Source: Tridacna crocea (taxonomy: Eukaryota > Mollusca > Bivalvia > Cardiida > Cardiidae). Taken from it: a stretch of 64,000 nucleotides of DNA. The notes beneath the pieces are model-generated. The model saw only the letters and a program-made list of their open reading frames with translations. It was not told the origin of the DNA and did not search any database. Made by a program: the position numbers and the translations under genes. The stretch's first letter is position 1. Each line of letters opens with the position of its first letter. The DNA lies in contig OX031062.1 in the NCBI GenBank assembly GCA_943736015.1, forward strand, positions 58,082,962 through 58,146,961. Reading direction: 5' to 3'. Below are positions 8,400 through 64,000 of the stretch, one piece after another.

Positions 8400-8629
8400 C
8401 TAACTCTTTACCAAACGACACAATTTTAGACTTGTTCAAACTGAAAGCATTTGCAGAAGACAAAACAAATGCAACTCAACACTTTAAACTTGAATTTAGA
8501 AGAGTAGAAAAAATTGTGGGAAAAGGAGAAAATGCTGGTTACCAGCATTTTCTCCTTTTCCTACAGTGTTTTCAGAAGGCTTTTGTCTCTGGGTCGTAAA
8601 AAACCAGGGATTGTTTGGTAAAGGGTTCA
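8400..8629 (-). mobile_element. TTAA-A MITE
   Basis: CTAACTCTTTACCAAACGAC on the left and TTGTTTGGTAAAGGGTTCA on the right flank an intact palindrome at about 8515-8572. Both TTAA sites carry a single change. Confidence 0.85.
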
Positions 8630-9098
8630 GCCCAGGGTAAGTACATGCCTAGTGTACTTACTGCCCACCCACATAACTCTGGAAATATTTTTCTTAGTCA
8701 CCGCCACAAAAAAGCTCCACTCCCCTTATTTATATTAGGTATCATTTTTGAAAAAAAAATATTGGCAAAGACTGGTTTTACTCTCCTATGGTCCTGTGGT
8801 CAACGCTTATTCCATTACTAACGGCATCCAAGATTCACTCAAACGTGTATAATGACGTCCATTTACTTTATAGCAGTGTGGTTTTCGTCCAAGCTCAATG
8901 AAGCACAATGATGTGTGAATGATGGGAATTGGCATCCTAGAGTAGCATACGGCTCTCTGTCGCATAGTTCACACTAACTTTTTTGGCGCCAAGAGCAATT
9001 TTAGTAACTTGTACCATAGGCCTATGAAACTTCATTGGTCTATCAAGGGATAACGAAGTCTTCATTATCGGGCGCCGTTACTTTAAACAGCACTTTGG
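8630..9098. other. Unassigned spacer
   Basis: I saw no family match or exon. Single-base runs and a GGCGCC pair at about 8985 and 9072 are the only oddities. Confidence 0.35.
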
Positions 9099-9169
9099 CG
9101 ACTCCCTGTATATTGCATATTGTAGGACATTTGTCCAATTATACTAGTACATGATATACAGGGTGTCGC
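9099..9169. repeat. Facing inverted ends GCGACxCCCTGTATA
   Basis: GCGACTCCCTGTATA and TATACAGGGTGTCGC lie about 44 bp apart as inverted repeats. TACAGGGTGTC next to TA is typical of mariner-type ends, so these could be outer ends of two elements or of one tiny element. Confidence 0.4.
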
Positions 9170-9486
9170 TAATGCTCTTTTATAGACATGATGTTAACTC
9201 ATTATCAAACAAAATATTGCTTGATTAAGAAGACCATCAATCGTGCCGGACACTGACAGTGTACAAGAACTTTTCTTTCCAAAGCAGAGGCAAATTTCTT
9301 TACAAAGCAGAGGCAAAAAGCATCATCACAATGTGGTTAAAGTCGTTACCATTATATTCTCAATGTTAGAACATGCAGCCTCCAACATCCTCAGAAGCAG
9401 CATTACAAAGCAACTGTAAGGCGTCTAAAAACAGGCATTCTATTCAGAAATTCCTCTGTATTTCGTGCTATCCTGTCTTTGTTATT

Positions 9487-9790
9487 CCCCCGCCGAAGGC
9501 GGAGGAATATAATTTTAGCGTTGTCCGTCCGTCTGTCCGTCCGTCCGCTTCAATAGCTCCAATAACACTGAACGGAATTTCCTGAAACTTTATACAAGTG
9601 TAAAATAACCCTTTCTGTCATGACACTTCTTTTCTTTTTTTGATTCGGTGCAAAATGGCCGACTGGGAGCCATTTTAACTTATGTGGTCCAGTACATTTT
9701 TTATGTTTTGAGTAATACCTATAACATGCTTGTAACAAAATAGGTCTTTTTCGACGGGGGATATCATTTCAACGAAATTGCTTGTTTGTC
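9487..9790. repeat. Interspersed repeat with terminal GC hairpin
   Basis: It begins with the hairpin CCCCCGCCGAAGGCGGAGG and a GTCCGTCCGTCTGTCCG run, and ends near GACGGGGGATATCATTTC. This layout is common in bivalve interspersed repeats, but I cannot assign a class. Confidence 0.45.
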
Positions 9791-9965
9791 ATAGTAGGGG
9801 AAGGCTGAATGGCAAAAAAAGCGTAGCGCAGCAGAGAGGTAGACAGACAAACAGACAGACTGACAGAGATAATTGGCAGATAGTCTGCCAGAGAGGGGGG
9901 TATAATGTATGTGTTGTCCTCTTTTATTCTTCTCTACATACAATTTATCTTAATCCTTTTCCTAA

Positions 9966-11104
9966 TACTACGGTCACAAATCAGTAAATGCCGCCTGCCG
10001 GCGTGGTAACTGCCAGTTTTCACTCAAATTCGGCCGGTGGCAGCCCGGTGGCAGGCACAATCGGCAGGCGGCATTTTAGACGCCGCTAGGACGCCGCTGA
10101 AGTTTTAAGAAAAAGTTAAAATTCTGACTGCCACCGGCCGATTTTTTCTAATTGTGGCTGTCGTCAGGGCGCCGGCCGGGCGCATTTCGTGGTCGCGCGG
10201 TGGCAATCAAGCGCCAGACGGCCGGCAGCGCGATTTTTACTCGGTCGTCACGGGGTTCGAGGGCCTTTAATCTTCGGCCGGCGATCGGTAGGAACTAACT
10301 GCCACTCTCCAGCATCCGGCCTGCTACCGTTATGCTACCGACATGCCACCGTGCGATTTCAAAATACCTGCCGGCGGCAGGGCGGAGATTGAAAAGCAGA
10401 TGGAAGGCGGCTGTTGGTGTTGGTAGGTGGCAGGATAGCGATCTGCCGAGTGCAGACTCCCGGCCCCTGAATATAAATCCGAAGCTATTCACAATAAGAA
10501 ATTGTCGTCATGGCGATTCTAACCGCACCAGGGCGACTCAGAGACTTGCATATTGCTGGGTTAAGATCTAGTCTCTTGCGCTTCGGTACTGGCGCTTTGT
10601 CCTGCCCCTTGCCTTTAGGGAGCAACTTGTTGGAAGGAAAAAAATTCTTAAAAATTAGATTATTTATCTTGTGGTTGATAATAATGATGAACACTTTGTA
10701 GTGATACGAGAGCAATCTAGCTATATATACTCCCTGTAAACCAGCCTGCCGCCGTCAGATTATCGGGCGGGCGCCTGTCGGTGGCAGTTCGAACGCCCGA
10801 TCGCCGGCCAGTGTCAGTTGTAAATGGTCGGTGTCCGCCAGGTCGCAGGGCGGTGGCAGGTAAAATCTGACGGCTGCCGGACTGTCGCCTAACTGCCACC
10901 GGCCGACACCCTGATGACACCCCACACCCCTCGAACTTAAGAAACTGCCTGCCGCCGCCCGGAATCCGCCAGGCGGCCTTTTACTGGCAGTTATTTATGA
11001 CCACTCTCACCGATTTGTAAAAAATCGGCCGGCGGCATGTAATTTTAAGAATCCACCGATGTCTAAAAATCGGCAGGCGGCAGTTTCACATTGTGACCAT
11101 AGTG
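9966..11104. mobile_element. CACTA-like non-autonomous DNA transposon, GC-rich
   Basis: The outer ends are TACTACGGTCACAA on the left and, read inward, CACTATGGTCACAA on the right. Each is followed within about 10 nt by TGCCGCCTGCCG. The subterminal zones are packed with GCCGGCGGCAG-type motifs in both orientations, a habit of CACTA/EnSpm elements. The middle (about 10480-10720) is AT-rich with no transposase domain. The flanking triplets TAA and TTA are not an exact duplication. GC content is far above the neighbouring DNA. Confidence 0.55.
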
Positions 11105-11118
11105 TTACAATGAGGACT

Positions 11119-11319
11119 TTAACACCCCTGAAATAGATGGCCTTTGAAAAAATTGTGGGAAAAGGAGAAAATGCTGGTTACCAGCATTTTCTCCTTTTCT
11201 CACAATGTTTTCTAACCAATCAAAGAAAACTCATTTCATATGAACCACATTGAAACTGTCATCAGCAAATGTTTTTAATTCCGACAGATCTAAAATCTTG
11301 TCGGGTGGTAAAGGGCTAA
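11119..11319 (+). mobile_element. TTAA-A MITE with shortened left end
   Basis: TTAACACCCCTGAAATAGATGG replaces the usual longer left arm. The palindrome is intact at 11148-11211 and the right end is GGTGGTAAAGGGCTAA. Confidence 0.75.
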
Positions 11320-11461
11320 AAACTCTTTTCAAGACCCTCAGGATGGAGCCATGTGAAAAAATTGGAGAAAATATTTTCTGTTTTCTCTTGTATTTTCCTT
11401 AACTCTTTACCTTTTTCTACCTCAGGGACGTAAGAACCGGGGATTGTTTGGTAAAGGGTTT
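11320..11461 (-). mobile_element. TTAA-A fragments, scrambled
   Basis: A worn palindrome half (GGAGAAAATATTTTCTG) is followed by CTTAACTCTTTACC, then the other end ACGTAAGAACCGGGGATTG and GGTAAAGGGTTT. It is probably two nested relics. Confidence 0.5.
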
Positions 11462-11958: not shown

Positions 11959-12186
11959 TTAACTCTTTACTCCATAGATACTCATTTCTACACATTGCTT
12001 GTAGGAGCCTTTAGAAAACATTGTGACAAAAGGTGAAATTGCTCGTGACGAGCAATTTCACCTTTTGTCACAATGGTTTCTATGCTATCAAAAGGTGTCA
12101 TATACATATAAGAAACAGCTTCATCCTTGCTTTTATTTAGGGTCAATTAGAGATACCATAGAAATGCCATATGGGGTAAAGGGGAA
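11959..12186 (-). mobile_element. TTAA-B MITE
   Basis: It runs from TTAACTCTTTACTCCATAG to ATGGGGTAAAGGGG. The palindrome arms GGTGAAATTGCTCGTGACG and complement are intact at about 12013-12077. The right TTAA is lost. Confidence 0.8.
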
Positions 12187-12286
12187 AAGCGGAGCTAGGT
12201 GAAGCCAAGACATTTACAGATAGATTTCAAATAATTGGGCATAATTTTCCTACATGACTACAGGTGCTATTTGCAACATTTTTATA

Positions 12287-12514
12287 TTAACCCTTTACCA
12301 AACAATCCCTGGTTTTTACGACTCTTGAGATATAAGCCTTTTGAAAACATTATGGGAAAATGAGAAAATGCTGGTAACCAGGATTTTATCCTTTTCCCAC
12401 AATGTTTTCTACCCTGCTGGAAACAAATTTCAATTTTAGAGTTACATTTATTATATCTTTTGCAAGTGCATTCAATTTGGACCAGTCTAAAACTTTATCG
12501 TTTGGTAAAGAAGA
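12287..12514 (+). mobile_element. TTAA-A MITE
   Basis: TTAACCCTTTACCAAACAAT opens a full-length copy. The palindrome has two mismatches and the right end GTTTGGTAAAG has lost its TTAA. Confidence 0.85.
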
Positions 12515-13021
12515 AAAAAGGTTCATGGTCAAACATGGTCAAGGTCTCCCTTGAAGTACATATGATAAACTTTTTAACAATCTTTTTTTAATTTTAGTTC
12601 CTGCCAGATCAATTCCATACTTGAAAAGATCTTCTGTTCTGCTCAGGCCCGTAGGAACAGGGGGTGCTAGGGGGAGCTCAGCCCCCCCCCAAAAAAAATT
12701 TTTGAAAATCATAATAACTAAAATAACAGTATTTCGAAGTTAGCCCCCCCCCCTCCCAGTCAATCTTCCTACGTGGCTGCTGCTGCTGCTGAATAAGTTT
12801 CTTCCATGGATTATAAAGTTTTAACTTGGAACTTCATGCACATTATTTAATCTAAAAGTATCTGAGGGTAACACTAACAGAGATGCATCTACACACATTT
12901 TTAGCCAGTTTTTAATCCATTTCTTAATCCATTTCATCCTTATTTTAACCTTTTACAAAACAATCCCAGTTTTTACGACTCTGAGATAGAAGCCCTTCGA
13001 AAACATTGTGGGAAAAGGAGA

Positions 13022-14591
13022 CAAGAGGGCCAAGATGGCCCGGGATCGCTCACCTGAATTTTTGAGATGACCATGCCCTATTTTTTTTTTTTTTTTTTTT
13101 TTTTTTTGAGGTATTGAAACAGAAACATTGGAACCAAATTTATAATTTTGCTAAGCAATTTTCAAAAGGTCACCTGTAAAATTCATTTCGAAATGTGACC
13201 GTCAGTTTCAAAAAGAAGAATTTTTAAGAATTCTTCATTTCTGTATAAGAGCAAGTATCCCCCATCCACGAGAGCCATGTTTCTTGATGGATCAAAATTT
13301 ACGAACAAGTTTTGAAAAGGGTCACCCAAGGAACATTTCGGAAATTTTCTTTTAAAATCTGACCAGGGGTTTCAGAGAAAGAGAATTTTCAAGAATTTCA
13401 TCATGTCCATATAGTGCAAGTAGTCCCCATTCACAAGAGCAAGGATCACCCAAGGAACATCTCTGTCAAATTATTTTAAAATCTGACTAGGGGTTTCAGA
13501 GAAGAAGAATTTTCAAGAATTTCTTCATTTCCATATAGTGCAAGTAGCCCCCATTCACCAGAGCCATGTTTCTTGACGGATCAAAATTTTGTGAACAATT
13601 TTTGAAAAGGGTCAACCAAGGAATATCTCTGTGAAATCATTTCAAAATCTGTCCTGCCGTTTCAGAGAAGAAGAATTTTTAAAAATTTCTCCATTTCCCT
13701 ATAGTGCAAGAAGCCCCCATTCACCAGAGCCATGTTTCTTGACCAATCAAAATTTCGCAAACAATTTTTGAAAAGGGTCACCCAAGGAACATCCCTGAGA
13801 AATTATTTCAAAATATGACCAGCGGTTTCAGAGAAGAAAATGTTTTAAGAATTTCCTCATTTCCCTATAGTGCAAGTAGCCCCCATTCACCACAGCCATG
13901 TTTCTTGAGCGATCAAAATTTCGCGAACAAGTTTTGAAAAGGGTCACCCAAGGAACAACTTTGTGAAATTATTTCAAAATCTGACCAGCGGTTTCTGAGA
14001 AGAAGATTTTTTAAGAATTCCTTCATTTCTGTATAGTGCAAGTAGCCCCCATTCACCAGAGCCACATTTTTTGACAGATCAAAATTTCACAAACAATTTT
14101 TGAAAGGGTCACCCAAGGAACATAATATGAAATTATTTCAAAATCCGACCAGCGGTTTCAGAGGAGAAGATTTTTAAAGAATTCCTTCATTTCTATATAG
14201 TGCAAGTAGCCCCCATTCACCAGAGCCACAATTTTTGACGGATCAAAATTTCACGAACAAATTTTTAATAGGGTCACCAAAGGAACATACATGTGAAATA
14301 ATTTCAAAATCGGACCAGCGGTTTCTGAGGAGAAGATTTTTAAAGAATTTGCTAAAAAAGTCCATTTGGTTGTCATGGCAACCAGAGTTTTTGACGGAAT
14401 CAAATTCTGTGAACAATTTTTAAAGAGGACCTCCCAAGGAACATTCCTGCCAAGTTTGGTCCAAATTGGCCCAGCGGTTTAGGAGGAGTTGATGTTTAAA
14501 GAATTGTTGACGACGGACAAGGCATGACGCACGACGGACACCCAGTGACCCTAAAAGCTCCCCTTGAGCACGTTGTGCTCAGGTGAGCTAA
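13022..14591 (+). mobile_element. Non-autonomous Helitron-type element with internal tandem repeats
   Basis: It begins CAAGAGGGCCAAGATGGCC and ends with hairpin GAGCAC-GTT-GTGCTC (14566-14580), 11 nt before a terminal CTAA. A short hairpin 10-12 nt before CTRR, together with the absence of target duplication, is the Helitron signature. No Rep or helicase sequence is present. The interior holds a poly-T run and about seven to eight 166-bp repeats. A second element with the same start is at 35480-36540. Confidence 0.7.
13240..14400. repeat. 166-bp tandem repeats inside the Helitron
   Basis: The marker GATCAAAATTT recurs at about 13291, 13580, 13746, 13912, 14078 and 14242, a spacing of 164-166 bp. 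The first gap is two units with a deletion. Each unit reads ...CAGCGGTTTCAGAGAAG...AGTGCAAGTAGCCCCC.... Bivalve Helitron relatives are known to carry satellite-like internal repeats of this size. Confidence 0.75.
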
Positions 14592-14741
14592 AAATGCCGG
14601 TAACCAGCATTTTCTCCTTTTCCCACAATGTTTTCTACCCTGATAGAAAGAAATTTCAATTTTTGAGTCATGTTCATTTTATCGTCTGCAAGTGCCTTCA
14701 ATTTGGACCAGTCTAAAATTTGTTGTTTGGTAAAGGATTAA

Positions 14742-14939
14742 GAAACTATAATAATTCTTGGTTTTTCTTGCCAAAATGTTGCCCCTGACGGCTACATAAT
14801 TGATGATTTCAATAGATTTTCAGCCTTTTCAGCCAGTCTCCAGCCAGTTTCTTATCTAATTCATCTTTATTTTAAGAAACTAAAAGCATTCTTGTACTTT
14901 CTTGGAAAATACTGCCTTTGATGGCTACATGTTTGTGTA
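14742..14939. other. Unassigned spacer
   Basis: It holds a short phrase repeat (CAGCCAGTTTCTTATCTAATTC) that echoes 12902-12940 left of the split MITE. Nothing else is seen. Confidence 0.35.
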
Positions 14940-15165
14940 CAATGTCATCCAGAATCAACCTGTGGATTCTGTGCAAGCTAATCCAAAATGACACTTTCCA
15001 TTTCTATGTAATTTTCTGTTTTGCACAAGAGTACTTTTACACAAAACCTAGTGTAGTTGTACAGTGCTTTCTCATATTAGCTTGCGCAGACTGCATAGGC
15101 TTATCCAAAATTATACTTTACGTAGATGTCTAATGCACCTTTTCACATGCTGCAAGCTACATGTA
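14940..15165. repeat. E-element, aged copy
   Basis: It is collinear with 4665-4935: AATGACACTTTCC, TTGCACAAGAG, TTAGCTTGCGCAGACTGC and CCTTTTCACATGCTGCAAGC occur in the same order with many substitutions. Confidence 0.55.
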
Positions 15166-15431
15166 CATGTGTCAAAGTTTTTGGAAATCCTACGTCAGGA
15201 AGAACATATTTTGATGGCTGTCTGTCCCATTTTATGGTTTCCACTTATGACAGTAAACAACTTGTCCGAGTTTGAATTACATATCTTTGGTATTTACAGA
15301 AATATTCAAAGATGTCAAATTGTTTTGCATGATGATGCAGGCAACATAGCAGACCATAACAATGACAAACCCCTGGGCTTACAACAAGTAACCTTGAAGT
15401 TTATTTGAAAACAGCTGAACTAAAAATTCGT

Positions 15432-15510
15432 AATAACCTACATTTCCTCCTTTTTCTACAGTGTCTTCATAAGCCTTCTTCCCGCAAAAAGGTCAATGAA
15501 TCTTAGGACT
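15432..15510 (-). mobile_element. TTAA-A fragment
   Basis: Only the right half of a minus copy remains: TTTCCTCCTTTTTCTACAGTG, then CATAAGCCTTCTT. Confidence 0.4.
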
Positions 15511-15862
15511 TTACCTTATAGGGTTACTATCAAGTATTCATAGGAAATTGTATTTCCTTATCATAAGACAACATATTGCATAATTTCATATCGGAAAGAA
15601 TGTGATTTATTGCAATATCTAAATTGTGATTTGTCCTCTGAAATTACTTTTGAGTTGATTGTCAAAGATAAGTAAGCTTTATGGGCTTGCATCTTTGTAT
15701 CACATCTCCGGTCGTAAAATTTTTTTTGAAATAGACGGTGATCCAAAATTTGTTCTCAAAACTAAATTTTTGATTGATATTTGATATTTGGAAATATTGA
15801 TATCACTAATAACATGCCTGGTCACCTTTAGCATTTCAGAGCGGAAAAAAGACTATCTACCC
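15511..15862. other. Unassigned spacer
   Basis: AT-rich; no repeat family or exon seen. Confidence 0.35.
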
Positions 15863-16130
15863 TTAACCCTGTACTAAGCAACCCATGGTTTTCACGACCC
15901 TGAGGAAGAAGCCTTTTGAAAACATTGTGAGAAGAGAAGAAAATGCTGGTAGCCAGCATTTTCTCCTTTTTCCACAGTGTTTTCTACCCCCCTCCCCAAA
16001 AATAAATAAATAAAGAATTAAATAAATAAATAAACTTCGATTTTTGAGTAACATTAAATTTGTTATCTGAAAAATCTTTCAATTTGGACAAGTCTAAAAT
16101 TTAATTCAGATTTCCCTCTTATAGAGTTAA
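15863..16130 (+). mobile_element. TTAA-A MITE with TAAA microsatellite
   Basis: Full length from TTAACCCTGTACTAAGCAAC to ATAGAGTTAA. A TAAA run (about 16002-16033) expands the segment right of the palindrome, making this copy about 40 bp longer than usual. Confidence 0.8.
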
Positions 16131-16193
16131 ACAATGATGGCTATTTACTCTTTGAGGGAAAGACTTATACTCTCCGACTGCTACGTAAGCTGC

Positions 16194-16762
16194 GTTGACA
16201 CCTTATCTAGTTTACCTTAGTGGGGAATTATCATAGATGGCCATAGTTGTGGTGACACCTTACCTAGTTGACCTTAGTGGGGAATGATCGCAGATGGCCA
16301 TAGTTGTGGTGACACCTTATAGAGTTGACCTTAGTGGGGAATGATCGCAGATGGCCATAGTTGTGGTGACACCTTATAGAGTTTTTTCTTAGTGGGGAAT
16401 GATCATAGATGGCCATAGTTGTGGTGACACCTTACCTAGTTGACCTTAGTGGGGAATGATCGTAGATGGCCATAGTTGTGGTGACACCTTAAAGAGTTTA
16501 CCTTAGTGGGGAATGATCGTAGATGGCCATAGTTGTGGTGACACCTTACCTAGTTGACCTTAGGGGGGAATGATCGTAGATGGCCATAGTTGTGGTGACA
16601 CCTTACCAAGTTGACCTTAGTGGGGAATTATCGTAGATGGCCATAGTTGTGGTGACACCTTACCTAGTTGACCTTAGTGGGGAATTATCGCAGATGACCA
16701 TAGTTGTGGTGACACCTTACAGTGTTTACCTTTGTGGGGAATTATCATAGATGGCCATAGTT
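16194..16762. repeat. 57-bp tandem repeat, about 10 units
   Basis: The unit contains GTGGTGACACCTTACC, TAGTTGACCTTAGTGGGG and ATGGCCATAGTT. Units vary mainly at CCTA/TAGA before GTT and at the G/A of CGCAGAT. 57 is divisible by three, but the units show no sign of coding selection. Confidence 0.9.
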
Positions 16763-16765
16763 AAA

Positions 16766-17414
16766 TGTATTAAACATAGTTGTCAGTAGTTTCACTTAGA
16801 TAACCTTATTTCAACTTACTAATGAATGTTTGAAGTTATGAATTGTAAGTAGTAAGTGCATATTTTTCAAACATGTTCAAAAATTTATTACAGTTAACTA
16901 CAATGTTGTGACACTGCTGTAAGAAAAGTTTGAACATAGTTGACTGCAGTTAAATTTAAATGACCCTACTTAATCATGGTGTGTTTCATGCATTCAACTA
17001 CATGTACATGTAAGGCCAACTACATAAGATTTGACAGCTGAAAAAACTGCAGCTTACCGGTACTGAGCACGACCAACAACAATGCTTTACTTAGCTTTAC
17101 TGTAGTTGTGTACACTAAGGATGTAATGAATATATGTAGATTAACATATTTCAGGGCAGTTAGATGTATGTACTAAAACCCTAGTTAATCTTAGCCAACT
17201 TTGCACGTATTTAAATATGGTTAACCATACTTCCATGTAGTTCAATCTACTTTGAATTTCTAGACCTCCTATAATTGCCAAGTTTAACCTACTTTGAACC
17301 TTCTGTAATCTAGCTGACTGCACTTACACTATGGCAGAATATGTTTGAAATGATCTATGGACAACAGTGTGAATGACCAAATATGTGACCATGGCTATAT
17401 ATAGAAGGGATAAT
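16766..17414. other. Unassigned spacer rich in AGTTAACTAC-like words
   Basis: Short phrases such as AGTTAACTACA, CAACTACA and TAGTTGAC recur irregularly. They may be remnants of a much older array related to the 57-bp unit. Confidence 0.35.
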
Positions 17415-18457: not shown

Positions 18458-18577
18458 TTAGAAAACCAATGTCTTTTTGGTATAAAATAGAATACACTGT
18501 GGGAGTAGGAGCAATTGACTGTTACAAGTAACTACTCCCAAAATACCAACATTTTTTGCCTAAAATAATTAGCTACA

Positions 18578-55062: not shown

Positions 55063-55107
55063 CATTTAGTTAGTGCATTTTTTAAAAAAACCTGCTGACA
55101 TTTTTCC

Positions 55108-55560
55108 GTACTCTGTGCTCTGTGAAAAGGGGGCTTAACCCTTTACCAAACACCAAAATTTTATACAGGTCTAAATTGAAAGCACTTGCAAACAAGAAAA
55201 TAAACATAACACAAAAATTGTTTCCAGCAAGGTAGAAAACATTGTGGGAAAAGGAGAAAATGCTGGTTACCAGCATTTTCTCCTTTTCCCACAATGTTTT
55301 CAAAAGGATTTTATCTCAGGGTCGTAAAAACCAGGAATTGTTTTGGAAAGGGTTAATGGATCTGCAAAAGCTAACCTGGACAGAAACTCTTCAATAATGG
55401 TCAATTCTCCGAGTCAAGGAACCAGTCTACCCCATGATTAAATTGGTTTGTTCAAAAAGTTGCTCTTATGGATCCACAGTTATGTGAAGACTTTGACGGG
55501 GCATCTTGTATCACACTGATCCGTTAAGCCCCCTTTTGCCAAAGCCTGGCTCATTTTCTT
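55108..55560. repeat. E-type repeat hosting a TTAA-A copy
   Basis: Left GCTCTGTGAAAAGGGGGC and right GCCCCCTTTTGCCAAAGCC are inverted. The TTAA-A insertion at 55135 sits in the TTAA of the phrase GGGCTTAATG. Confidence 0.5.
55135..55356 (-). mobile_element. TTAA-A MITE
   Basis: TTAACCCTTTACCAAACACC to GTTTTGGAAAGGGTTAA; perfect palindrome; long arm slightly short. Confidence 0.9.
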
Positions 55561-55569
55561 TACATGCAT

Positions 55570-55798
55570 TTAACCCTTTATCACACAATCCAGGCTTTCT
55601 ATGACCCTGAGATAGAAGCCTTTTGAAAACATAGTGCGAAAAGGACAAAATGCTGGGAGCCAGCATTTTCTCCTTTTCCCACAATGTTTTCCACCCAGCT
55701 GGAAACAAATTTCAACTTCTGAGTTATGGTTATTTTGTCATCTGCAAGAGCTTTGAATTTGGACTAGTCTAAACTTTTGTCATTTGGTAAAGGGTTCA
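55570..55798 (+). mobile_element. TTAA-A MITE
   Basis: TTAACCCTTTATCACACAATC to ATTTGGTAAAGGGTTCA; apex GCTGGGAGCCAGC. Confidence 0.9.
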
Positions 55799-55839
55799 TC
55801 AATATCCTTCTCAATGACTAAAAGTGAAGTTTTCAATTT

Positions 55840-55982
55840 GATGGTAAAAACCATCGGGGAATAATTTCTCCTTATCGGACAGTGTAGATCAAAGATCAGA
55901 CTGCACATTCTGTGCAGTCTGATCTTTGATTTACACTGTCCACAAAAGGTCAGTGAATCGGGTTTAACAGCCTAAGAGTTAA
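55840..55982 (-). mobile_element. TTAA-C MITE
   Basis: Hairpin CAGTGTAGATCAAAGATCAG and complement at about 55877-55940; right end CAGCCTAAGAGTTAA. The left end is unclear. Confidence 0.75.
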
Positions 55983-56302
55983 GATATGAAAGCCTAATAA
56001 ACCTCTGCTGATGTAAAAGTCTGATGGAATCAAGTCCATTTGTTTTGTTTTCTTTTCATTTCCCAAATGTGTGATAAGACAGATTTCTGTCTTTTCTAAA
56101 ATAATATTCCCCGCATGCAATTTATATCCAATTCCAGAAAAAAGCAATTTTCCTCTTCACTCATCCTTTGCACTCCAAATAAATAAAACAGACAGCTCCT
56201 GAAACTCCAACAATGCATTTCTGAGGCTGTCTTTGACTGCTGAAAAAAATATCAGTAACCAAACTCTTGACCAAACAACAAAATTTCAGCCTCGCTCATA
56301 GT
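55983..56302. other. Unassigned spacer with a TTAA-A end fragment
   Basis: CTCTTGACCAAACAACAAAATTTCAG (56262-56290) is the outer end of a minus TTAA-A. The rest is unassigned. Confidence 0.4.
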
Positions 56303-56530
56303 TTAACTCTTTACCACACACAATCATGACTTTTAACGACCCTGAGAAAGAGGCCTTCTGAAAACATTGTGGGAAAAGGAGGAAATGCTGGTAACCATTT
56401 TCTCCTTTTCCAACAATGTTTTCTATCCTTTTCAAACCAAATTTCAATTTTTCAGTCACATTTATTTTGTCGTCTGCAGATGCTTTCAATTTGAACCAGT
56501 CTACAGTTATATCGTTTGGTATAGAGTTAA
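56303..56530 (+). mobile_element. TTAA-A MITE, apex shortened
   Basis: TTAACTCTTTACCACACACAA to GTTTGGTATAGAGTTAA; GCTGGTAACCATTTTC lacks the CAGC of the right arm. Confidence 0.9.
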
Positions 56531-56594
56531 AGGGTTTAGACTGTACCCACAGTCTTGTTACATATTATCTCTGTGCAGCAAAAAGGTTAATCAT

Positions 56595-56822
56595 TTAACC
56601 CATTACCAAATGACAAATTTTCACCTGGCCCAAATTGAAAGCATTTGCAGACGACAAAATAAAAGTGACTGAAAACTTGAAATTCATTTTGTAAAGGGTA
56701 AAAAACATTGTTGAAAAAGGAGAAAATGCTGGTTACCAGCATTTTCTCCTTTTCCCACAATATTTTCTAAAGACTTCTTTAAAAGGGGCATCAAAAGTAG
56801 GGATTGTGTGCTAATGGGTTAA
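56595..56822 (-). mobile_element. TTAA-A MITE
   Basis: TTAACCCATTACCAAATGAC to GTGTGCTAATGGGTTAA; palindrome with a few mismatches. Confidence 0.9.
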
Positions 56823-56899
56823 ATACTAAATATATGAAATGTATTTTCTTGATTAGAAAAAGAGACCAAGAATTTTCAACTGAAGCTTTTTCCCCCAAT

Positions 56900-56985
56900 C
56901 AGACTGACAGTCCTGATCAAAGGTAAAACATCTTTTGTGCTGTCTAATTTTGATCTTAACTGTCTGCAAAGGGCAGTCTGACTCT
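56900..56985. repeat. TTAA-C core relic
   Basis: GACAGTCCTGATCAAAGG and GTGCTGTCTAATTTTGATC are eroded hairpin arms. Confidence 0.4.
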
Positions 56986-57041
56986 GATTTACCTGTACAT
57001 TGTCTACAAAATCAACCAGTTGTGTGCTGTACTAAAAGAAT

Positions 57042-57270
57042 TTAACCCTTTACCACACAATGACGACTTTTGACGACCCTGAGGTAGAAGCCTTTTGAAA
57101 ACATTGTGGGAAAAGGGGAAAATGCTGGTAACCAGCATTTTTCCTTTTCCAACACTGTTTTCTACCCTTTCCAAATCAATTTTCTATTCTTCAGTCACAT
57201 TTTTTTTTGTCGTCTGCAAATGCTTTGAATTTGGACCAGTACATAAATTTGTTGTTTGGTAATGAGTTAA
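57042..57270 (+). mobile_element. TTAA-A MITE
   Basis: TTAACCCTTTACCACACAATG to GTTTGGTAATGAGTTAA; palindrome nearly perfect. Confidence 0.9.
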
Positions 57271-57365
57271 AGAATGAAGGAGTTGTCTTACAATTGACAT
57301 GAATTCAAATCATCTCCAATGCGTTATTCCTAGACAGAGAGTCTAAGCCATGAACAGTTCAACCT

Positions 57366-57478
57366 GTATTTTCTACCCTTCACAAGCTAAATTTCAATTT
57401 TTCAGCCACACTTCTTTTCATCTGCAAATGTTTTTAATTTGGACCAGTATAAAATTTTTTCGTGTGGTATAGAGTTAA
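57366..57478 (+). mobile_element. TTAA-A right half only
   Basis: Starts at TTTTCTACCCTTCACAAGC, just after the hairpin, and ends GTGTGGTATAGAGTTAA. Confidence 0.8.
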
Positions 57479-57733
57479 TTCCCCTTTTACCACAGCATGA
57501 TTCAAAAATAATTCTAAATACTGTCTCGATTCTTAAGTCTGAGACAAACCATCTAACTGACTGAGACTCTGGCTATTCTCAGAATTTAGAATTAAAACAG
57601 AATTCAAAGTGGATGGTGCAGCTGTGACATCTACCTGCTGAAAGTGTCTATACTATTTTTCTCATTCCCAAACAACGCAATTTCAGACAAACTGATATTG
57701 AAAGCTGTTGCAATTGCTGTATCAAATTTCAGC

Positions 57734-57955
57734 TTAACCCTTTACTAAACAATTCCAGGTTTTCACGACACTAAGAAGGAAGCGTTTTGAAAACATTGTG
57801 GGAAAAGGAGAAAATGCTGATAACCAGCATTTTCTCCTTTTCCAGAAATATTTTCTATCCTTTCCAAAACGAATTTCAATTTTGGAGTCACAAAAATTTG
57901 TTGACTGCAAATGCTTTGAATTTGAACTAGTCTAAAAAGTTTGGTAAAGAGTTAA
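57734..57955 (+). mobile_element. TTAA-A MITE
   Basis: TTAACCCTTTACTAAACAATTC to AGTTTGGTAAAGAGTTAA; palindrome with minor changes. Confidence 0.9.
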
Positions 57956-58163
57956 CCCATTACCACACAATCCCTACTTTTGACAATCCTGAGAAAGAAG
58001 CCTACAGAAAACATTGTGGGGTAACCAGCATTTTCTCCTTTTCCCACAATGTTTTTTACCCTTCACAAGACAAATTTCAAATTTTTAGTCACTTTTATTT
58101 TGTCGTCTGCAAATTCTTTCAATTTGGACAAGTCTTTTATATTGTCGTTTGGTAATGAGTTAA
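57952..58163 (+). mobile_element. TTAA-A MITE abutting, left hairpin arm lost
   Basis: Shares TTAA 57952-57955. ACATTGTGGGGTAACCAGC skips the left arm. Ends CGTTTGGTAATGAGTTAA. Confidence 0.9.
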
Positions 58164-58307
58164 ATAACAGAATCTGTGAAGGCATAGAAAACCTTGTGGA
58201 AAAAGGAGAGAATGTTTGTTACCAGCATTTTCTTCTTTTCCCAAAAGGTTTTCAAAAGACTGTTTCTCTGGGTCATTAAAAGTTCAGATTGTGTGGTAAT
58301 GGATTAA
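58160..58307 (-). mobile_element. TTAA-A MITE, third in the abutting chain, truncated
   Basis: After the shared TTAA only 24 bp precede ATAGAAAACCTTGTGG. Worn palindrome. Ends GTGGTAATGGATTAA. Confidence 0.75.
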
Positions 58308-58901
58308 TTGGCACTTTAAGAATCAAATCTGGCAGATCCACATAAACTTTGAACAATTTAATAGTGCAGTTCCACATTAAAACTAAGGCTAATAAATAGT
58401 TTAGATGGTAATTTCCATCTAATAAATAAAAAGTTAATTATTATGATTTCAAACTACTTTTTACCTCTCACAATCCCATTGGACAATTCAAATCTAAGAC
58501 CAGCTGACCTCACAATCTTTGCAATCTGATCTAAGTCTACATTTGAAACACAAGCAAAGGCCAAAGGATTATAAACCAAATGTTCATTGAAGACTAAAGT
58601 TTGTCTTGATGAAGGGCCAGATAAAATAATGAAATATTTATTTCCGGATGCGAGCAGCCTGCACTCTTTCATTTATACAATGAAATTAAATTTTCTCCAT
58701 TTCTTATCCCTTGATTTCCCCGTAGGATGATTTGGAGAAAGAAATTTCTACTTTGCCAAGACCTGTTAACAATGAATGCAGTTTGTTATGAAAGCTTACA
58801 AAAGAACATTTGAAATTTTTCTTCCACTAGAGGAAACCTAATCTTTTTCTATACAGGCTAATTTCAGACCTCCCAAAAAAAAGCCCATATTACATCATGA
58901 C
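58308..58901. other. Unassigned spacer with TTAA-C relic and one copy of a duplicated segment
   Basis: A TTAA-C core lies at 58484-58550 on the minus strand; its translation mimics an open frame. Sequence from about 58790 is repeated near 59590. Confidence 0.45.
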
Positions 58902-59127
58902 TTAACTCTTTACCAAACAACAAAATTTTAGTTTTGTCCAAATTGAAAGCATTTGCAGACGACAAAATAAAAGTGACTGAAAATTGGAAATTTTTGTAAA
59001 GGGTAGAAAACAATGTGAGAAAAGGAGAAAATGCTGGTTACCAGCATTTTCTCCTTTTCACACAATGTTTTCCAAAGGCTTCTTTCCCAGTGTCGTCAAA
59101 AGTAGGGATTGTGTGGTAATGGATTAA
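58902..59127 (-). mobile_element. TTAA-A MITE in a duplicated segment
   Basis: TTAACTCTTTACCAAACAAC to GTGTGGTAATGGATTAA. The paralogous segment at about 59600-59810 appears to lack it. Confidence 0.95.
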
Positions 59128-59339
59128 CATTTTCAAAACAGACTTTTTCCAACATTTTGGAAAACATAATGGGAAAAGGAGTTTACTAAGTACAAGCAAT
59201 TGCTCCTATTGCAAAAGCTGTTTTTAATTATTTTCGTTTTCCAAGCTTTTACCTAGAAACAAAATCTTAATTATCTTTTTTCTTTCCTGAAAAGGCTGTT
59301 GGGCAAAATATTGAAAAAGAGAGTGTTGCATTTTATGGT

Positions 59340-59557
59340 TTAAACCTTTACCAGATTACAAAATTTTAGACTGGTCCAAATGGAAACCGTTTGCAGACGA
59401 CAAAATGAATGTGACTAAGGAATTCAAATTTGTTTTAGGAAGCTGAGAAAACATTGTGGGAAAAGGAGAACCAGCATTTTCTCCTTTACCCACAATGTTT
59501 TCAAAGGGATTCTTCCACAGGGGTATTAAAAGTCGCTATTATATGGTAAAGGGTTAA
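59340..59557 (-). mobile_element. TTAA-A MITE with deleted apex
   Basis: TTAAACCTTTACCAGATTAC to ATATGGTAAAGGGTTAA; core GGAAAAGGAGAACCAGC lacks part of the left arm. Confidence 0.9.
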
Positions 59558-59819
59558 ATTGCACTTCAAGTCTCTGTAGAATTATTTCTCATTATTAAAG
59601 AAGGACATTTGAACTTTTCAATTCTATAGAGGAAACTGAATCTTTTATTGTGAAAGCTATTTTTAGACCTTCCAAAAAACAATTTCAAACTACATAATGA
59701 TTCAATGTTTCCAACAAGGCATCTTTTTCTATAGCAGTCTGGTTAAAACCTTGGGAAGAAGAGTCTACTCTGTTCCTTTTGCAATAGCTGCTTTTTATTC
59801 AGATTTACAGATAACAGTC

Positions 59820-60048
59820 TCAACCCTTTACTAAACAATCCCTGGTTTCTACGACCCTGAGTTAGAAGCCTTTTGAAAACATTGTGGCAAAAGGAGAAAA
59901 TGCTGGTAACCAGCATTTTCTCCTTTTCCCACAATGTTTTCTACCCTGTTGGAAACAAATTTCAATTTTTGAGTCATGTTTATTTTGTCGTCTGCAAGTG
60001 CTTTCAATTTGGACCATTCTAAAATTTTGTTGTTTGGTAAAGGGTTAA
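59820..60048 (+). mobile_element. TTAA-A MITE, near-consensus (family reference)
   Basis: 229 bp. Ends TCAACCCTTTACTAAACAATC and TTTGGTAAAGGGTTAA give inverted ends of about 14 bp inside TTAA sites (left mutated). Order: short arm with ACGACCCTGAGTTAGAAGCC; 65-bp palindrome (59876-59941) with arms AAAACATTGTGGCAAAAGG and AGAAAATGCTGG; then long arm with CAAATTTCAATTTTTGAG, TTTTGTCGTCTGCAAGTGC and TCAATTTGGACCA. There is no coding capacity. TTAA targets and CCC-starting ends are the habit of piggyBac-group elements; the mobilising transposase is not in this window. Confidence 0.95.
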
Positions 60049-60075
60049 TCATAAAAAAAACAAAAACATAAAAAC

Positions 60076-60195
60076 TGTTCCAAATAATCCAGACATTTGA
60101 TGACCTTAAAAAAAAAAAGATTTTTGAAAACATTACGGAAAAGAAGAAAATGCTGCTTGACAGTGTTTTCTCATGATGTTTTCTCAAAGTCTTGT
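60076..60195 (+). mobile_element. TTAA-A fragment
   Basis: TCCAAATAATCCAGACATTTG, GAAAACATTACGGAAAAG, GCTGCTTGACAGTG; the right arm is collapsed. Confidence 0.5.
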
Positions 60196-60260
60196 TTTAT
60201 GTACAAATATTAGTTTATAGTAATAAGTTTAATATTTTTTGTATCAGAATAAACCACACA

Positions 60261-60778
60261 TTAAAGGTGGGTACTTAGAATTTTCACATCACACCAAATC
60301 AAAAAATATATATATCACTGAAATTTATATGAAAAAACAATACAAATCATCAATAATTAAGAATCATAAGATTACCAAAAACAAATTTTTTTGGTGGTAT
60401 TCCCTTAAAAGGCTACGTAGCTCTTAAGCTATTTTTAGATTTTGCGCCAGAAATAAAAAAAATGCATTGTGGGAATGTTAAGTGACTGGCACGTGACTAA
60501 TGACGCTTAAATTCCGTTACATAACAAACATGTAATTACTTTTCATAATATCTTCTTCGGATGCTATGTTTGAAGCTTGAGTTGTTCATGTAAAAATAGA
60601 ACATGTTTCCCGTCGATGTCGACCTTGGCCATAGTAAATCTCTAATTTCTCGTGTTGTCGGATGGTTTTCGACTACTGGGGTTTTATGGATGACGATTAT
60701 AAGGCTTTAGGAGTATAAGGATGACATTTTTGTATTTCTGTAAGAGTTTTGTCCCAAATTCTGAAGGGCCACCTTTAA
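60261..60778. mobile_element. Candidate longer TTAA element
   Basis: TTAAAGGTGGGTACTTAGAAT on the left and, read inward, TTAAAGGTGGCCCTTCAGAAT on the right. 518 bp with TTAA at both ends and no transposase frame. Confidence 0.6.
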
Positions 60779-60890
60779 GGCATGAAAATCTTTTATGTAG
60801 TTATTAAATGTCATTATCACAAATTGAAGATTAGAATCAAGTGATAACCAGTATATACAATGCCAGATTATAAAGTTGACAAAAACTTAC

Positions 60891-61000
60891 CCCTGTTGTG
60901 GGCGCCTTATATCACATCCCCACTCCGGGACTGAATCACCCAACAACACAGACGTACAGGTAGCCATACAGTTTGCTATAGAAACTAGGTTGTACCCACC
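60891..61000 (-). CDS. HDAC6: Class IIb histone deacetylase exon with catalytic tyrosine
   Basis: On the minus strand, TTCATTTTAG precedes a 110-nt exon and GTAAGT follows it. It encodes GGYNLVSIANCMATCTSVLL, then GDSVPEWGCDIRRPQQ plus a split codon. GGYNL is the end-of-pocket motif of classical HDACs; its Tyr stabilises the transition state during zinc-dependent deacetylation. SI...M..CT..LLGD matches the second catalytic domain of HDAC6, a cytoplasmic tubulin/HSP90 deacetylase, better than HDAC10. The exon joins the 62947-63036 exon in phase zero (...VLE|GGY...). A TTAA-A copy begins only 17 bp before the acceptor. The gene symbol is inferred from domain likeness; HDAC10 or a bivalve paralogue remains possible. 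Confidence 0.88.
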
Positions 61001-61017
61001 CTAAAATGAATGTAGGT

Positions 61018-61244
61018 TTAACCCTTTACACCACAATCCAGACTTTAAGGCCCTGAGAAAGAGGCCTTTTGAAAATATTTTAGGAAAAGGAGAAAATGCT
61101 GGTAACCAGCATTTTCTCCATTTCCTAAAATGTTTTCTACTCTTCCCAAAACAAGGTTTAATATTTCAGCAAAGTTTATTTTGTTGTCTGCAAATACTTT
61201 CAATTCCGACAAATCTAAAATTTTGCTATTTGGTAAAGAGTTCA
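61018..61244 (+). mobile_element. TTAA-A MITE beside the HDAC splice acceptor
   Basis: TTAACCCTTTACACCACAATC to TTTGGTAAAGAGTTCA; palindrome nearly perfect. In minus sense it fills the intron up to 17 bp from the acceptor. Confidence 0.9.
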
Positions 61245-61545
61245 GAAATTATTCAAGCAAGAACATTTACTTGTATCAATCTGTTTATCAGAGCTTTTTC
61301 ATTCGAAGAAATCATAGAATTAAACTGCTCAGCTAATATACTAAAATAATGCTCTAAATGGGTGATTAAAGAGGGAATATTAAGATGTTACAGTTTTACA
61401 AAATTTCAAAAAATGTTTTAATCTTCAAAATGTTTTAATACTGAATCTAATAATCCAATGAGACGAAGACTGTTTCTCTTAAATAAGATAAAGTAGTGCA
61501 AGAAAAAATGTCAGATAGTATTTCCGTAATGGGATACGTAACTTC
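61245..61545. other. Intronic spacer
   Basis: Between the two deacetylase exons. No repeat family assigned. Confidence 0.4.
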
Positions 61546-61736
61546 TTCACTCTTTACGACAACCCTGAATTTTAACAACCCTGATAAACACTCCTTTTGA
61601 AAACATTGATGGAAAAGGAAAATAATGCTAGTAACCAGAAACAGATAGAAACAAATATAAACATTTGAGCAACACATGACTTGTTGTCTGCAAAATTTGG
61701 ACAAGTGCTCTATTTTGTTGTGTGGTAAAGGGTTAA
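61546..61736 (+). mobile_element. TTAA-A MITE, hairpin decayed
   Basis: TTCACTCTTTACGACAACCC to GTGTGGTAAAGGGTTAA. After GCTAGTAACCAG the right arm is absent. Confidence 0.75.
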
Positions 61737-61780
61737 CTCTTTCCAAGATGACTAAAATTTAGGCTTGTCAAAATTTCACC
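61733..61780 (-). mobile_element. TTAA-A outer-end fragment
   Basis: TTAACTCTTTCCAAGATGAC, TTAGGCTTGTCAAAATTT; only the outer 45 bp of a minus copy before the next copy takes over. Confidence 0.65.
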
Positions 61781-61992
61781 CTTTCCTGGTTTTTATGGGT
61801 CAGGAATACAAGCCTTTTGAAAACATTGTGGGAAAAGGAGAAAATGCTGGTAACCAGTATTTTCTCCTTTTCCAGCAATGTTTTCTACCCTGTCATATAG
61901 ATAAATCATCTTTTTAGCAACTGTTAATTTGTCACCTGCAAAATGCTTTCAATTTGGTCTGGTCCAAAATTTGCCATTTGGGAAAGGGTTAA
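61781..61992 (+). mobile_element. TTAA-A MITE fused to the preceding end
   Basis: CACCCTTTCCTGGTTTTTATG to TTTGGGAAAGGGTTAA; palindrome with two mismatches; left outer end lost. Confidence 0.85.
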
Positions 61993-62014
61993 AGCACTCG
62001 CAGACAACATCACA

Positions 62015-62190
62015 AACTAGAGCTGTCACTGAATGTGGCTTAATACCCCCACTAGCGCTTTGACAGAAACAGGCAATTACTAGTAATTTGTACACAGACA
62101 GACACACGGACAGACACATGGATGGACGGACAGACAGGCTGATTCCAGTATACCCCCAAAAACATTCGTTTTGCAGGGGTTTTATAAGGC
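62015..62190 (+). repeat. F-repeat
   Basis: AGAGCTGTCACTGAATGTGG, GACAGAAACAGGCAATTAC, a GGACAGACA run, CCAGTATACCCCCAAAAAC, TTTTGCAGGGGTTTTATAA. Confidence 0.7.
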
Positions 62191-62363
62191 TCAGATGATG
62201 ATATTCATCTGTGAGGGTAAAACACATTGTGAGAAATTAGAAATTGCTGGTTACCAGCATTACCTCCTTCACCCACACTGTTTTCAAATTCTAAAGGAAC
62301 AGACTTCAAATCTTAAAGTCTTTTCGAGTCATTTAAAATCAAGATTGTGTGTTAAAGTGTTAA
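62190..62363 (-). mobile_element. TTAA-A MITE, long arm missing
   Basis: GAGGGTAAAACACATTGTGAG, apex TTGCTGGTTACCAGCA, end GTGTGTTAAAGTGTTAA. Confidence 0.7.
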
Positions 62364-62588
62364 TCCTTTACCAAACAATCCCTGGTTTTTTTGACCCTGA
62401 GACAGAAGCCTTTTGAAAACACTGTGGGAAAAGGGGTGAATGCTGGTTACCAGCATTTTCCCCTCTTCCCACAATAATTTCAACCCTAACGGAAACAAAT
62501 TTAAGTCTCTGAGTTACATTTATTCTGTCGCATGCAAGTGCCTTGAATTTGGACCAGTCTAACATTTTGTCGTTTGGTAAAGAGTTAA
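62360..62588 (+). mobile_element. TTAA-A MITE abutting the previous copy
   Basis: Shares TTAA 62360-62363; ends CGTTTGGTAAAGAGTTAA; palindrome with GGGGTGAATGC change. Confidence 0.9.
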
Positions 62589-62946
62589 GATATACATGTT
62601 TTCAGATTGTTAGCCAGAATTTCTATGAAGTTTTTCAGAAATTTTACCTCCAAAAAGACATGTCTATTATATAGAATTGTATTAAAAAAAAAAATACTAT
62701 GAGGTCAAAATTGATCCCAAAAAAGTAGAAGCATTTACAACTGAAAATGAGTGCCCTGTTATTTTACCATCAAAAATGCGCCATTTTACTGACTGCAATC
62801 CTGTAGTTTCTTTTGTGACCTCATTTTCAATCTTGCAGTTCCTGAATAAATGCTGTATGTCCTGGTGAGCGACTGAAAATTTGAAAGTTTTGTGAAGGGT
62901 GAGGGGTTACGATAAAAACTGTCCATAATAGGGAAAATAATTTTAC
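62589..62946. other. Intronic spacer
   Basis: AT-rich intron of the deacetylase gene, without recognised repeats. Confidence 0.4.
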
Positions 62947-63036
62947 CTCCAACACCAATACTACTCTCCCATTGGCCAAACCACTCAGCATGTGGGTCAT
63001 GTGACCATATCCAACAGGTGTCACTTTACAACCTCC
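62947..63036 (-). CDS. HDAC6: Class IIb histone deacetylase exon
   Basis: Minus strand: acceptor ATCTTTTCAG, 90-nt exon, donor GTAAAA. It encodes 30 residues, [20 protein letters not shown] then [10 protein letters not shown]. In HDAC6 this corresponds to the stretch GGCxVTPEGYAHMTHLLMGLA just before EGGYNL, forming a wall of the active-site pocket. It is phase zero at both ends and continues into the exon at 60891-61000 across a 1.95-kb intron that carries six TTAA-A pieces and an F-repeat. The upstream catalytic exons are not in the remaining 1 kb and must lie beyond the window. Confidence 0.9.
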
Positions 63037-63139
63037 CTGAAAAGATAAAATTTCAAATTGATATGAAGATAACTGAGTAACTTAGTAATGATAGATTACT
63101 TTCTTTTTCTTGTTTTAAGCATTGTAAGCATTTACAAAA

Positions 63140-63296
63140 TTTTAATGTGTGACGAAAGAATACTGGTAACCTGCATTTCATCCTTTTCTGACAATGTTTC
63201 CTACCCCTTGTACACAAATTCCATTACTTGAGTCATTTGTATTTTGTTATCTGCAAATGATTTCCATTAAGACCTGCTTAAATTTTCTTGTGCAGA
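63140..63296 (+). mobile_element. TTAA-A MITE, left half missing
   Basis: ATACTGGTAACCTGCATTTC, GACAATGTTTCCTACCCC, TTTTGTTATCTGCAAATG; ends decayed. In the intron upstream of the 62947-63036 exon. Confidence 0.65.
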
Positions 63297-63363
63297 AAGC
63301 ACTTATGCACCTTTAGTACACAGCTTGGGAAAATATGGAAGGTAAATGAACATCATTCAGTAT

Positions 63364-63402
63364 TAAATCTTAAGGGCCCCTTTTTACTAAGGTACTAGAG
63401 CT
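63364..63402 (+). repeat. 38-bp direct repeat, first copy
   Basis: TTAAATCTTAAGGGCCCC, then TTTTACTAAGGTAC; repeated at 63720-63758 with two differences. Confidence 0.85.
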
Positions 63403-63495
63403 GTGTATTGCCAAGAAAAATGTATCGCGATAGTATTGCGATACCAGACAGGCGATATAATACAATATCATGATACTTAATTGTTTCAGATTTAC

Positions 63496-63723
63496 TTAAC
63501 CCTTTACCCCATAAGGCATTTCTATGATATCTCTAATTGACCCTACATAATAGCAAGGATGAAGTTGTTTCTTATGTGTATATGACACCTTTTGATAGAA
63601 TAGAAAAATTGTGACAAAAGGTAAAACTGCCCGTCACGAGTAATTTCACCTTTTGCCACATTGTTTTCCAAAGGCCCCTACAAGCATTGCATAGAAATGA
63701 GTATCTATGGAGTAAAGGGTTAA
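63496..63723 (+). mobile_element. TTAA-B MITE
   Basis: TTAACCCTTTACCCCATAAGG to GGAGTAAAGGGTTAA; hairpin with several mismatches (GGTAAAACTGCCCG). Its right TTAA is the first four bases of the second direct repeat. Confidence 0.95.
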
Positions 63724-63758
63724 ATCTTAAGGGCCCCATTTTACTAAGGTACCGTAGT
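63720..63758 (+). repeat. 38-bp direct repeat, second copy
   Basis: TTAAATCTTAAGGGCCCC, then ATTTTACTAAGGTACC; see 63364-63402. Confidence 0.85.
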
Positions 63759-63911
63759 TACGAATAAAATTTGCATATGTTTTATGTGAATATGGTATAG
63801 TGGCATTAATCTGCTACAAGATACAAGGTAACTAAGTTTTCAATTTTATCTAGATAAAAATTTGCAGGAAATTTCAATTTATCGCAATAGTTTTTTTACA
63901 GAATAATTGGT

Positions 63912-64000
63912 TTAACCCTTTACCAAACAATCCCTGGTTTTTACGATCCTGAGATATTGTTTTCTACCCTACTGGAAGCAATTCTCAACTTTTGAGTTAC
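63912..64000 (+). mobile_element. TTAA-A MITE with the hairpin removed, cut by window end
   Basis: TTAACCCTTTACCAAACAATC, ACGATCCTGAGATAT, then directly TGTTTTCTACCCTACTGG. The whole palindrome is absent while both flanks are near consensus. Confidence 0.9.

Follow-up and report, generated by a model that had tools for sequence, protein, structure and literature searches.

We analyzed a stretch of 64,000 nucleotides from the genome of the bivalve Tridacna crocea (GenBank assembly GCA_943736015.1, contig OX031062.1, positions 58,082,962 to 58,146,961 of the forward strand), hereafter the window. It contains minus-strand exons of an HDAC6-like gene, a long block depleted in CpG dinucleotides and, mostly within this block, a dense family of miniature inverted-repeat transposable elements (MITEs) bounded by TTAA. 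At the center of the elements lies a long palindrome that is more constrained than the surrounding arms and whose two sides covary. An earlier, preliminary description of this DNA had reported the elements; the HDAC6-like exons, the CpG-depleted block and the palindrome constraint go beyond it.

Copies, ends and age of the MITE family

The family was annotated across the window with an nhmmer profile built from full-length copies (E ≤ 1e-3, non-overlapping pieces). This yielded 122 pieces covering 20,446 bp (~20.4 kb of the 64 kb), of which 45 span the whole model (from positions 1-3 to 225-227) and count as full length; the same profile gave no matches in any of five Markov-2 resamplings of the window. 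Pieces beginning at or after position 8400 number 118 of 122, about one per 0.47 kb. The preliminary description, which counted more than 90 pieces in 56 kb of a TTAA-bounded hairpin MITE family, was right on this point and on the high density, but its figure of about one piece per 0.6 kb understates the density. It also had the plan of the element right, with a unit of about 228 bp and a palindrome of about 65 bp; a consensus, built as a check, sets these lengths at 229 bp, both TTAA included, and 67 bp. The elements are short, non-coding and homogeneous in length, carry terminal inverted repeats (TIRs) of ~14 bp next to TTAA and occur in many copies, which together mark them as MITEs. The longest open frame in the window is 169 aa, and no tRNA and no Rfam match at gathering thresholds was found there.

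In the main subfamily, A, the left end reads TTAAC(T/C)CTTTACCAAAC, or C(T/C)CTTTACCAAAC without TTAA, and the right end CCCTTTACCACAC, which reads inward as TTAACCCTTTACCACAC. Overall, the ends follow TTAA-C(C/T)CTTTACC, with the tips 5'-C(C/T)C and G(A/G)G-3'. Among the 46 copies in which both sides have a letter, position 6 of the A left end is T (CTCT) in 27 and C (CCCT) in 17. CCCT is also found at the A right end and at the ends of a second subfamily, B. There are only seven exact occurrences of the 13-mer CCCTTTACCAAAC. Exact TTAA is found at 48 of 63 left ends, at 51 of 73 right ends and, in agreement with the preliminary description, at both ends in 27 of the 45 full-length copies. 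When TTAA was accepted within 6 bp, for which the chance is 8.6% per random position, 36 of 64 near-full-length A and B copies had it at both ends, 21 at one end and seven at neither. Judged from TTAA at the ends, the family probably duplicates its TTAA target. The two ends also covary at consensus position 8, which is T/T in 31 and A/A in nine of 52 copies, with 41 matches compared to a permutation mean of 27.5 and a maximum of 36 in 500; this may reflect a matching of end types to different transposases.

The 52 aligned A copies diverge from their consensus by 4.8% to 36% (median 13.5%). Distances calculated from their arms have a pairwise median of 0.281 and a nearest-neighbor median of 0.173, with 0.074 for the closest pair, and physical and sequence distances are uncorrelated (Mantel -0.07, permutation p 0.94). 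The copies are old and mixed, with no recent ones among them, and accumulated slowly. The 'burst' of the preliminary description does not stand, given this lack of recent copies and of spatial relatedness. Filling of the region by a recent local burst or by local hopping would account for the high density and for some neighbors having one common TTAA, but the distances make it very improbable, as does the number of such neighbors, six near-full-length pairs (five to seven by matching of element ends). When random TTAA insertion was simulated without decay, 70 insertions gave ~13 shared TTAAs (mean 12.9, range 7-18) and 126 insertions gave about 37. The observed number lies below random expectation, and therefore no special array mechanism is needed; a tandem-array mechanism was rejected because shared TTAAs are not in excess. 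We likewise do not claim a flank preference beyond TTAA, since the apparent pattern looks like the ends of neighboring copies.

Constraint and covariation in the central palindrome

The consensus palindrome is perfect, with 33-bp arms and a 1-bp spacer, and occupies consensus positions 108-174, which makes the right element arm about half the length of the left. Its RNA folds into a single long stem, and the hairpin is very stable. Among the 52 A copies, identity to the consensus is 92.8% in the palindrome region (71 columns), 81-82% in the arms and 84-87% in the TIRs. For a comparison of rates, we used a tree built from the arms alone and separated inherited changes, on internal branches, from private ones. 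Per site, the palindrome has 0.19 inherited changes, compared to 1.61 and 1.40 for the two arms and 1.39 for the TIRs; TTAA, at 0.12, is the sole part with fewer such changes than the palindrome. Because a tree fitted to the arms tends to put arm changes on internal branches, the eightfold ratio between palindrome and arms is perhaps somewhat high. Private changes per site are 2.93 in the palindrome, compared to 5.06 and 5.94 in the arms and 4.39 in the TIRs. The rate difference between palindrome and arms stands for each of the four bases separately.

Subfamily B, represented by eight copies, has the length, TIR type and palindrome position of A. Compared position for position, the two are 81% and 88% identical at their ends (TTAA plus TIR) and only 37% and 46% in the left and right arms, whereas the palindrome, at 87%, is level with the ends. 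Four palindrome pairs differ between A and B, each on both sides and with pairing kept (4/4 compensatory); the one remaining difference, the ninth, lies at the central base. A clean subdivision of A itself by average linkage failed, with 46 of 52 copies in one cluster.

Covariation was assessed in an alignment of 49 palindromes, comprising 43 A copies (of 47 passing a length filter, of 52) and six of the eight B copies. Four A copies were removed manually because their palindromes are disturbed, the two B copies outside the set have a deleted and a truncated palindrome, respectively, and one included B stretch was trimmed. In this set, both sides had changed in 14 of 33 pairs (shuffle mean 6.6) and in 43 cells (mean 9.1), and none of 500 shuffles reached any of five covariation measures, although related sequences can beat every shuffle without structure. 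Slid registers gave 6-11 pairs and 8-13 cells; the pair count is therefore less striking than the cell count, and many of the doubly changed cells derive from B by common descent. A further test was confined to A, with 51 copies, the intermediate-hairpin copy (Table 1) excluded, no selection on the palindrome and only gapped cells set aside. Here, the true register held 24 doubly changed cells, compared to 5-11 in 16 slid registers and to a permutation mean of 9.7 and maximum of 20 in 1,000. Complementary doubles numbered 13, for which the permutation mean was 4.2 and the maximum 11 in 1,000. The palindrome is both constrained and covarying, and its maintenance through matched changes on both sides suggests that the hairpin does something for the element.

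The idea that the palindrome derives from the TIR of the element itself was considered and dropped, as the similarity is weak in A (p 0.06-0.08, with one wrong-strand control also at 0.06) and absent in B. Separately, some copies depart from the common plan. In a 285-bp TTAA-bounded element at 43659-43943, a left arm is followed by the palindrome and then by another left arm, inverted and clearly unlike the first; this element perhaps arose by deletion between the palindromes of two opposed neighbors. Short tandem duplications within copies, including half of the palindrome, were found at 17951-18108 (79-bp units) and 34631-34716 (43-bp units).

The HDAC6-like gene and the CpG-depleted block

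Two exons of the HDAC6-like gene and the intron between them lie near the end of the window (Table 1). Compared to HDAC6 in the PDB, the first gives E 5e-14 for the chain (sum of two stretches) and 1.4e-7 for the best stretch, and the second 2e-6 and 6.5e-4. A third exon at 29983-30050, which matches the next HDAC6 stretch weakly (tblastn E 0.2, no PDB match), is taken as probable because of good splice sites and the right phase, and with it the 30.8-kb intron. No HDAC6 zinc-finger domain was found by tblastn.

Calculated per 2-kb bin, the ratio of observed to expected CpG is 0.68-0.91 in the first 12 kb and 0.12-0.46 thereafter; the one exception, 0.67 at 24-26 kb, coincides with a CpG-bearing minisatellite. 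DNA between the MITEs beyond 12 kb is also low in CpG (0.07-0.48, except 0.72 at 24-26 kb and 0.69 at 60-62 kb). By midpoint, seven pieces fall into the first 12 kb and 115 into the other 52 kb (binomial p 3e-5, with the boundary picked after seeing the data), and a density boundary near 12 kb fits at least as well as one at 8.4 kb. MITE content and CpG ratio per bin are inversely correlated (Spearman -0.69), and within the block the elements lie in both orientations, 58 plus and 56 minus. The block is probably methylated in the germ line, which fits the decay of consensus CpGs in the MITE arms (24% transitions, compared to 9-10% at other C and G). Beyond the exons, the CpG-poor block may represent the body of one gene.

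Other repeats share the window. A second dispersed repeat occupies 11 places, including 8-178, 3068-3244, 4322-4518, 6691-6894 and 23579-23770; five of the 11 fall within the first 8 kb, which is rich in CpG and has few MITE pieces. The minisatellite at 25076-26232 (35-bp unit, ~32 copies) is GC-rich and CpG-bearing within the CpG-poor block, and another lies at 16196-16762 (57-bp unit, ~10 copies). A tandem repeat with a 166-bp unit in 5.5 copies spans 13441-14350, at most 2.5 kb from the CpG boundary.

Table 1 Coordinates of MITE copies, exons and other features in the window
Feature	Position	Strand	Remarks
Region under study	8400..64000	.	118/122 MITE pieces, nhmmer annotation
CpG-depleted block	12001..64000	.	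115/122 pieces; observed/expected mostly 0.1-0.5 per 2-kb bin
Representative full-length family A copy	44210..44438	+	229 bp, TTAA both ends, best-scoring
Central 67-bp palindrome of the representative copy	44317..44383	.	alignment and consensus
Full-length family A copy	32826..33053	+	palindrome folds as 32-bp hairpin; RNA -53.2 kcal/mol, z -13.9
Intermediate-hairpin copy	44989..45213	+	2/4 B-type palindrome pair changes
Subfamily B copy	11959..12183	-	
Subfamily B copy	21235..21440	+	internal deletion
Subfamily B copy	26628..26856	+	229 bp, TTAA both ends
Subfamily B copy	35789..36016	-	
Subfamily B copy	40449..40676	+	TTAA both ends
Subfamily B copy	46309..46472	-	truncated
Subfamily B copy	48806..49034	-	TTAA common with A copy 48581-48809
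Subfamily B copy	63496..63723	+	TTAA both ends
Exon of HDAC6-like gene	62947..63036	-	30 residues; flanks TTTTCAG / GTAAAA
Intron	61001..62946	-	1,946 bp, 5 MITE pieces (53% MITE)
MITE copy	61018..61243	-	TTAA end 17 bp from exon acceptor at 61000
Next exon of HDAC6-like gene	60891..61000	-	continues HDAC6 sequence; flanks ATTTTAG / GTAAGT
Putative intron	30051..60890	-	30,840 bp, 69 MITE pieces (39% MITE)
Probable following exon	29983..30050	-	flanks TTTATTTCAG / GTAATG; phase-compatible, 2+1 split codon

Mobilization and possible roles of the palindrome

Several searches addressed a source of mobility and possible relatives. Pfam scans of 30 open reading frames (ORFs) and of the minus-strand frames of 1-9900 and 12001-64000 gave nothing above the curated cut-off, and weak matches below it look like chance; the underlying list held 121 mostly unmasked ORFs of at least 55 aa. 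As a positive control, the HDAC exons were not recovered, so these Pfam results say little. A frame scan against the PDB was more sensitive, with its control (one of three minus-strand frames, 49-64 kb) recovering the first exon at E 2.1e-7. On the minus strand of 15-30 kb, it gave no matches in three frames; PDB scans covered the minus strand only, without 12-15 kb and 30-49 kb. Palindrome DNA patterns had no match in viral contigs and one chance match in prokaryote genomes, to a Ruminococcus contig unlike the element. Strings of the element sequence led to a single gastric-cancer paper through a short string common by chance. Neither a covarying palindrome of such a kind nor the sequence of the family was found in print among open-licence papers, with Repbase outside the search; the MITE family itself may well be already catalogued.

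With TTAA and 5'-CYC ends, which are unlike those of Kolobok, a piggyBac-type mobilizer is the best-supported reading of the family. The preliminary description had proposed such mobilization; the proposal is partly supported but stays short of proof, with no transposase seen. For piggyBac, identical 19-bp palindromic sequences are described in the left and right ends, the left-end one seen bound by two zinc domains (PMC11707139). Internal inverted repeats with the potential to fold into hairpins are described in piggyBac-like elements (PMC12324416, preprint). On these grounds, we read the palindrome as a docking or folding element, and we lean, without great confidence, toward a long-lived non-autonomous piggyBac-type MITE family that accumulated in HDAC6-like introns and whose palindrome is a cis-acting transposition site. 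Copies would have been mobilized in trans by a transposase not seen in the window and collected over a long time in the apparent introns of the minus-strand gene, within the CpG-depleted, probably germ-line-methylated block. Most likely, the palindrome, as sequence or as extruded hairpin, would be required for efficient transposition and would represent a strongly developed form of the internal inverted repeats bound by the C-terminal zinc domains of piggyBac transposases; the transposase would presumably bind it. Only copies with an intact palindrome would then give offspring, and active source copies would have to keep it. A more specific version, in which a hairpin-dependent element is recognized or copied as a folded strand and required for piggyBac-type MITE transposition, is tentative and rather doubtful. 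If true, a transposition signal would be set by pairing and not by sequence alone, with each subfamily evolving its own hairpin through matched changes.

Several observations weigh against the piggyBac-type reading with a functional palindrome. The left end of A is more often CTCT than the piggyBac CC[C/T]T, the palindrome is far longer than the 19 bp used by piggyBac and its similarity to the TIRs is not significant. No transposase and, as the preliminary description had also noted, no autonomous partner was seen in the window, in Pfam frame scans that miss short exons, as the control indicates, and with plus-strand frames unscanned. Copies were picked partly for an alignable palindrome, which favors conserved ones, and the 49-sequence set omits disturbed palindromes. 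Private changes, too, are fewer in the palindrome than in the arms (2.9 compared to 5.1-5.9), which a mutation process explains equally well. Within A, 144 one-sided changes stand against the 13 complementary doubles, and 11 doubles are non-complementary; after insertion, the palindrome therefore mostly decays like any sequence.

The main rival is that mutation itself keeps the palindrome, through intrastrand template switching during replication or repair that copies one arm from the other, turns mismatches into perfect pairs and produces paired changes in single events. Besides the reduced private changes and the very stable hairpin, it is favored by the complementary doubles among all 52 A copies, nine of 16 being of a kind seen in one copy only. 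However, the excess of one-sided changes in A without the intermediate copy implies that any such copying is rare after insertion, and copying between arms alone leaves the identity of the A and B palindromes unexplained, given the divergence of their element arms. We regard template switching as a serious but unlikely sole explanation; it could act together with selection. Selection for an RNA hairpin, as a source of small RNAs, would draw on the single long RNA stem and on intronic copies that would be transcribed with the gene, and Made1 and hsa-mir-548 are reportedly a precedent for MITE-derived microRNA genes. This is improbable in view of the lack of Rfam matches in the window and the presence of both orientations in the CpG-poor block, and selection on an RNA product would presumably hit few loci rather than the active source lineage. 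As for the mobilizer, Kolobok is another superfamily that duplicates TTAA, with a KolobokP lineage especially rich in bivalves (PMC9587614), and among molluscs its types are described as almost exclusive to bivalves (PMC10294476). Kolobok ends are nevertheless given as 5'-RR...YY-3' (PMC9587614), a rule from which the MITE ends depart, with a C(C/T)C start and the end sequence TTAACCCTTTACC, and we consider a Kolobok-type transposase a poor candidate for having mobilized the family.

The interior of a MITE is generally regarded as drifting freely, whereas here an internal part exceeds the TIRs, beyond TTAA, in constraint and evolves like a paired structure. The putative 30.8-kb intron, ~39% MITE within a CpG-depleted block, would further be a clear illustration of intron growth through the slow build-up of a single short element rather than through a burst.

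Among known systems, the palindromic MITE Made1 is likewise a short hairpin-forming element; its layout differs in that the palindrome here is central, apart from short TIRs, and the target is TTAA. piggyBac from Trichoplusia ni and piggyBac-like elements share with the family the TTAA duplication, CC-type tips, internal palindromes near the ends and asymmetric left and right spacing (PMC11707139, PMC12324416). They differ in having separate 19-bp repeats at each end instead of one long perfect central palindrome, and no transposase is seen here. Kolobok and the T2-MITEs have in common with it the TTAA duplication and long-lived MITE subfamilies but carry terminal RR...YY (AGGRR in T2) instead of C(C/T)C (PMC6004289, PMC9587614). 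The coral CMITEs of Acropora, for which a piggyBac affiliation was proposed, resemble our family in their TTAA target, in the CCCTTT-type ends of most CMITE families, in several families with a common internal region more conserved than the TIRs and in neighbors in tandem arrays (PMC2872659). An interior more conserved than the TIRs is also seen here within A (92.8% compared to 84-87%), while between A and B the values are 87% for the palindrome and 81% and 88% for the ends. CMITEs are described as ~100 bp long with a 75-base internal region of unknown origin, in contrast to the 229 bp, covarying 67-bp palindrome and freely diverging arms of the T. crocea elements (PMC2872659). The available text of that paper contains none of the terms palindrom, hairpin, stem, secondary structure, covari or compensat, and the two cores are compared here by description. 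The T. crocea family adds to the puzzle posed by the CMITEs and makes it possible to test directly for a structural signal in a TTAA transposon.

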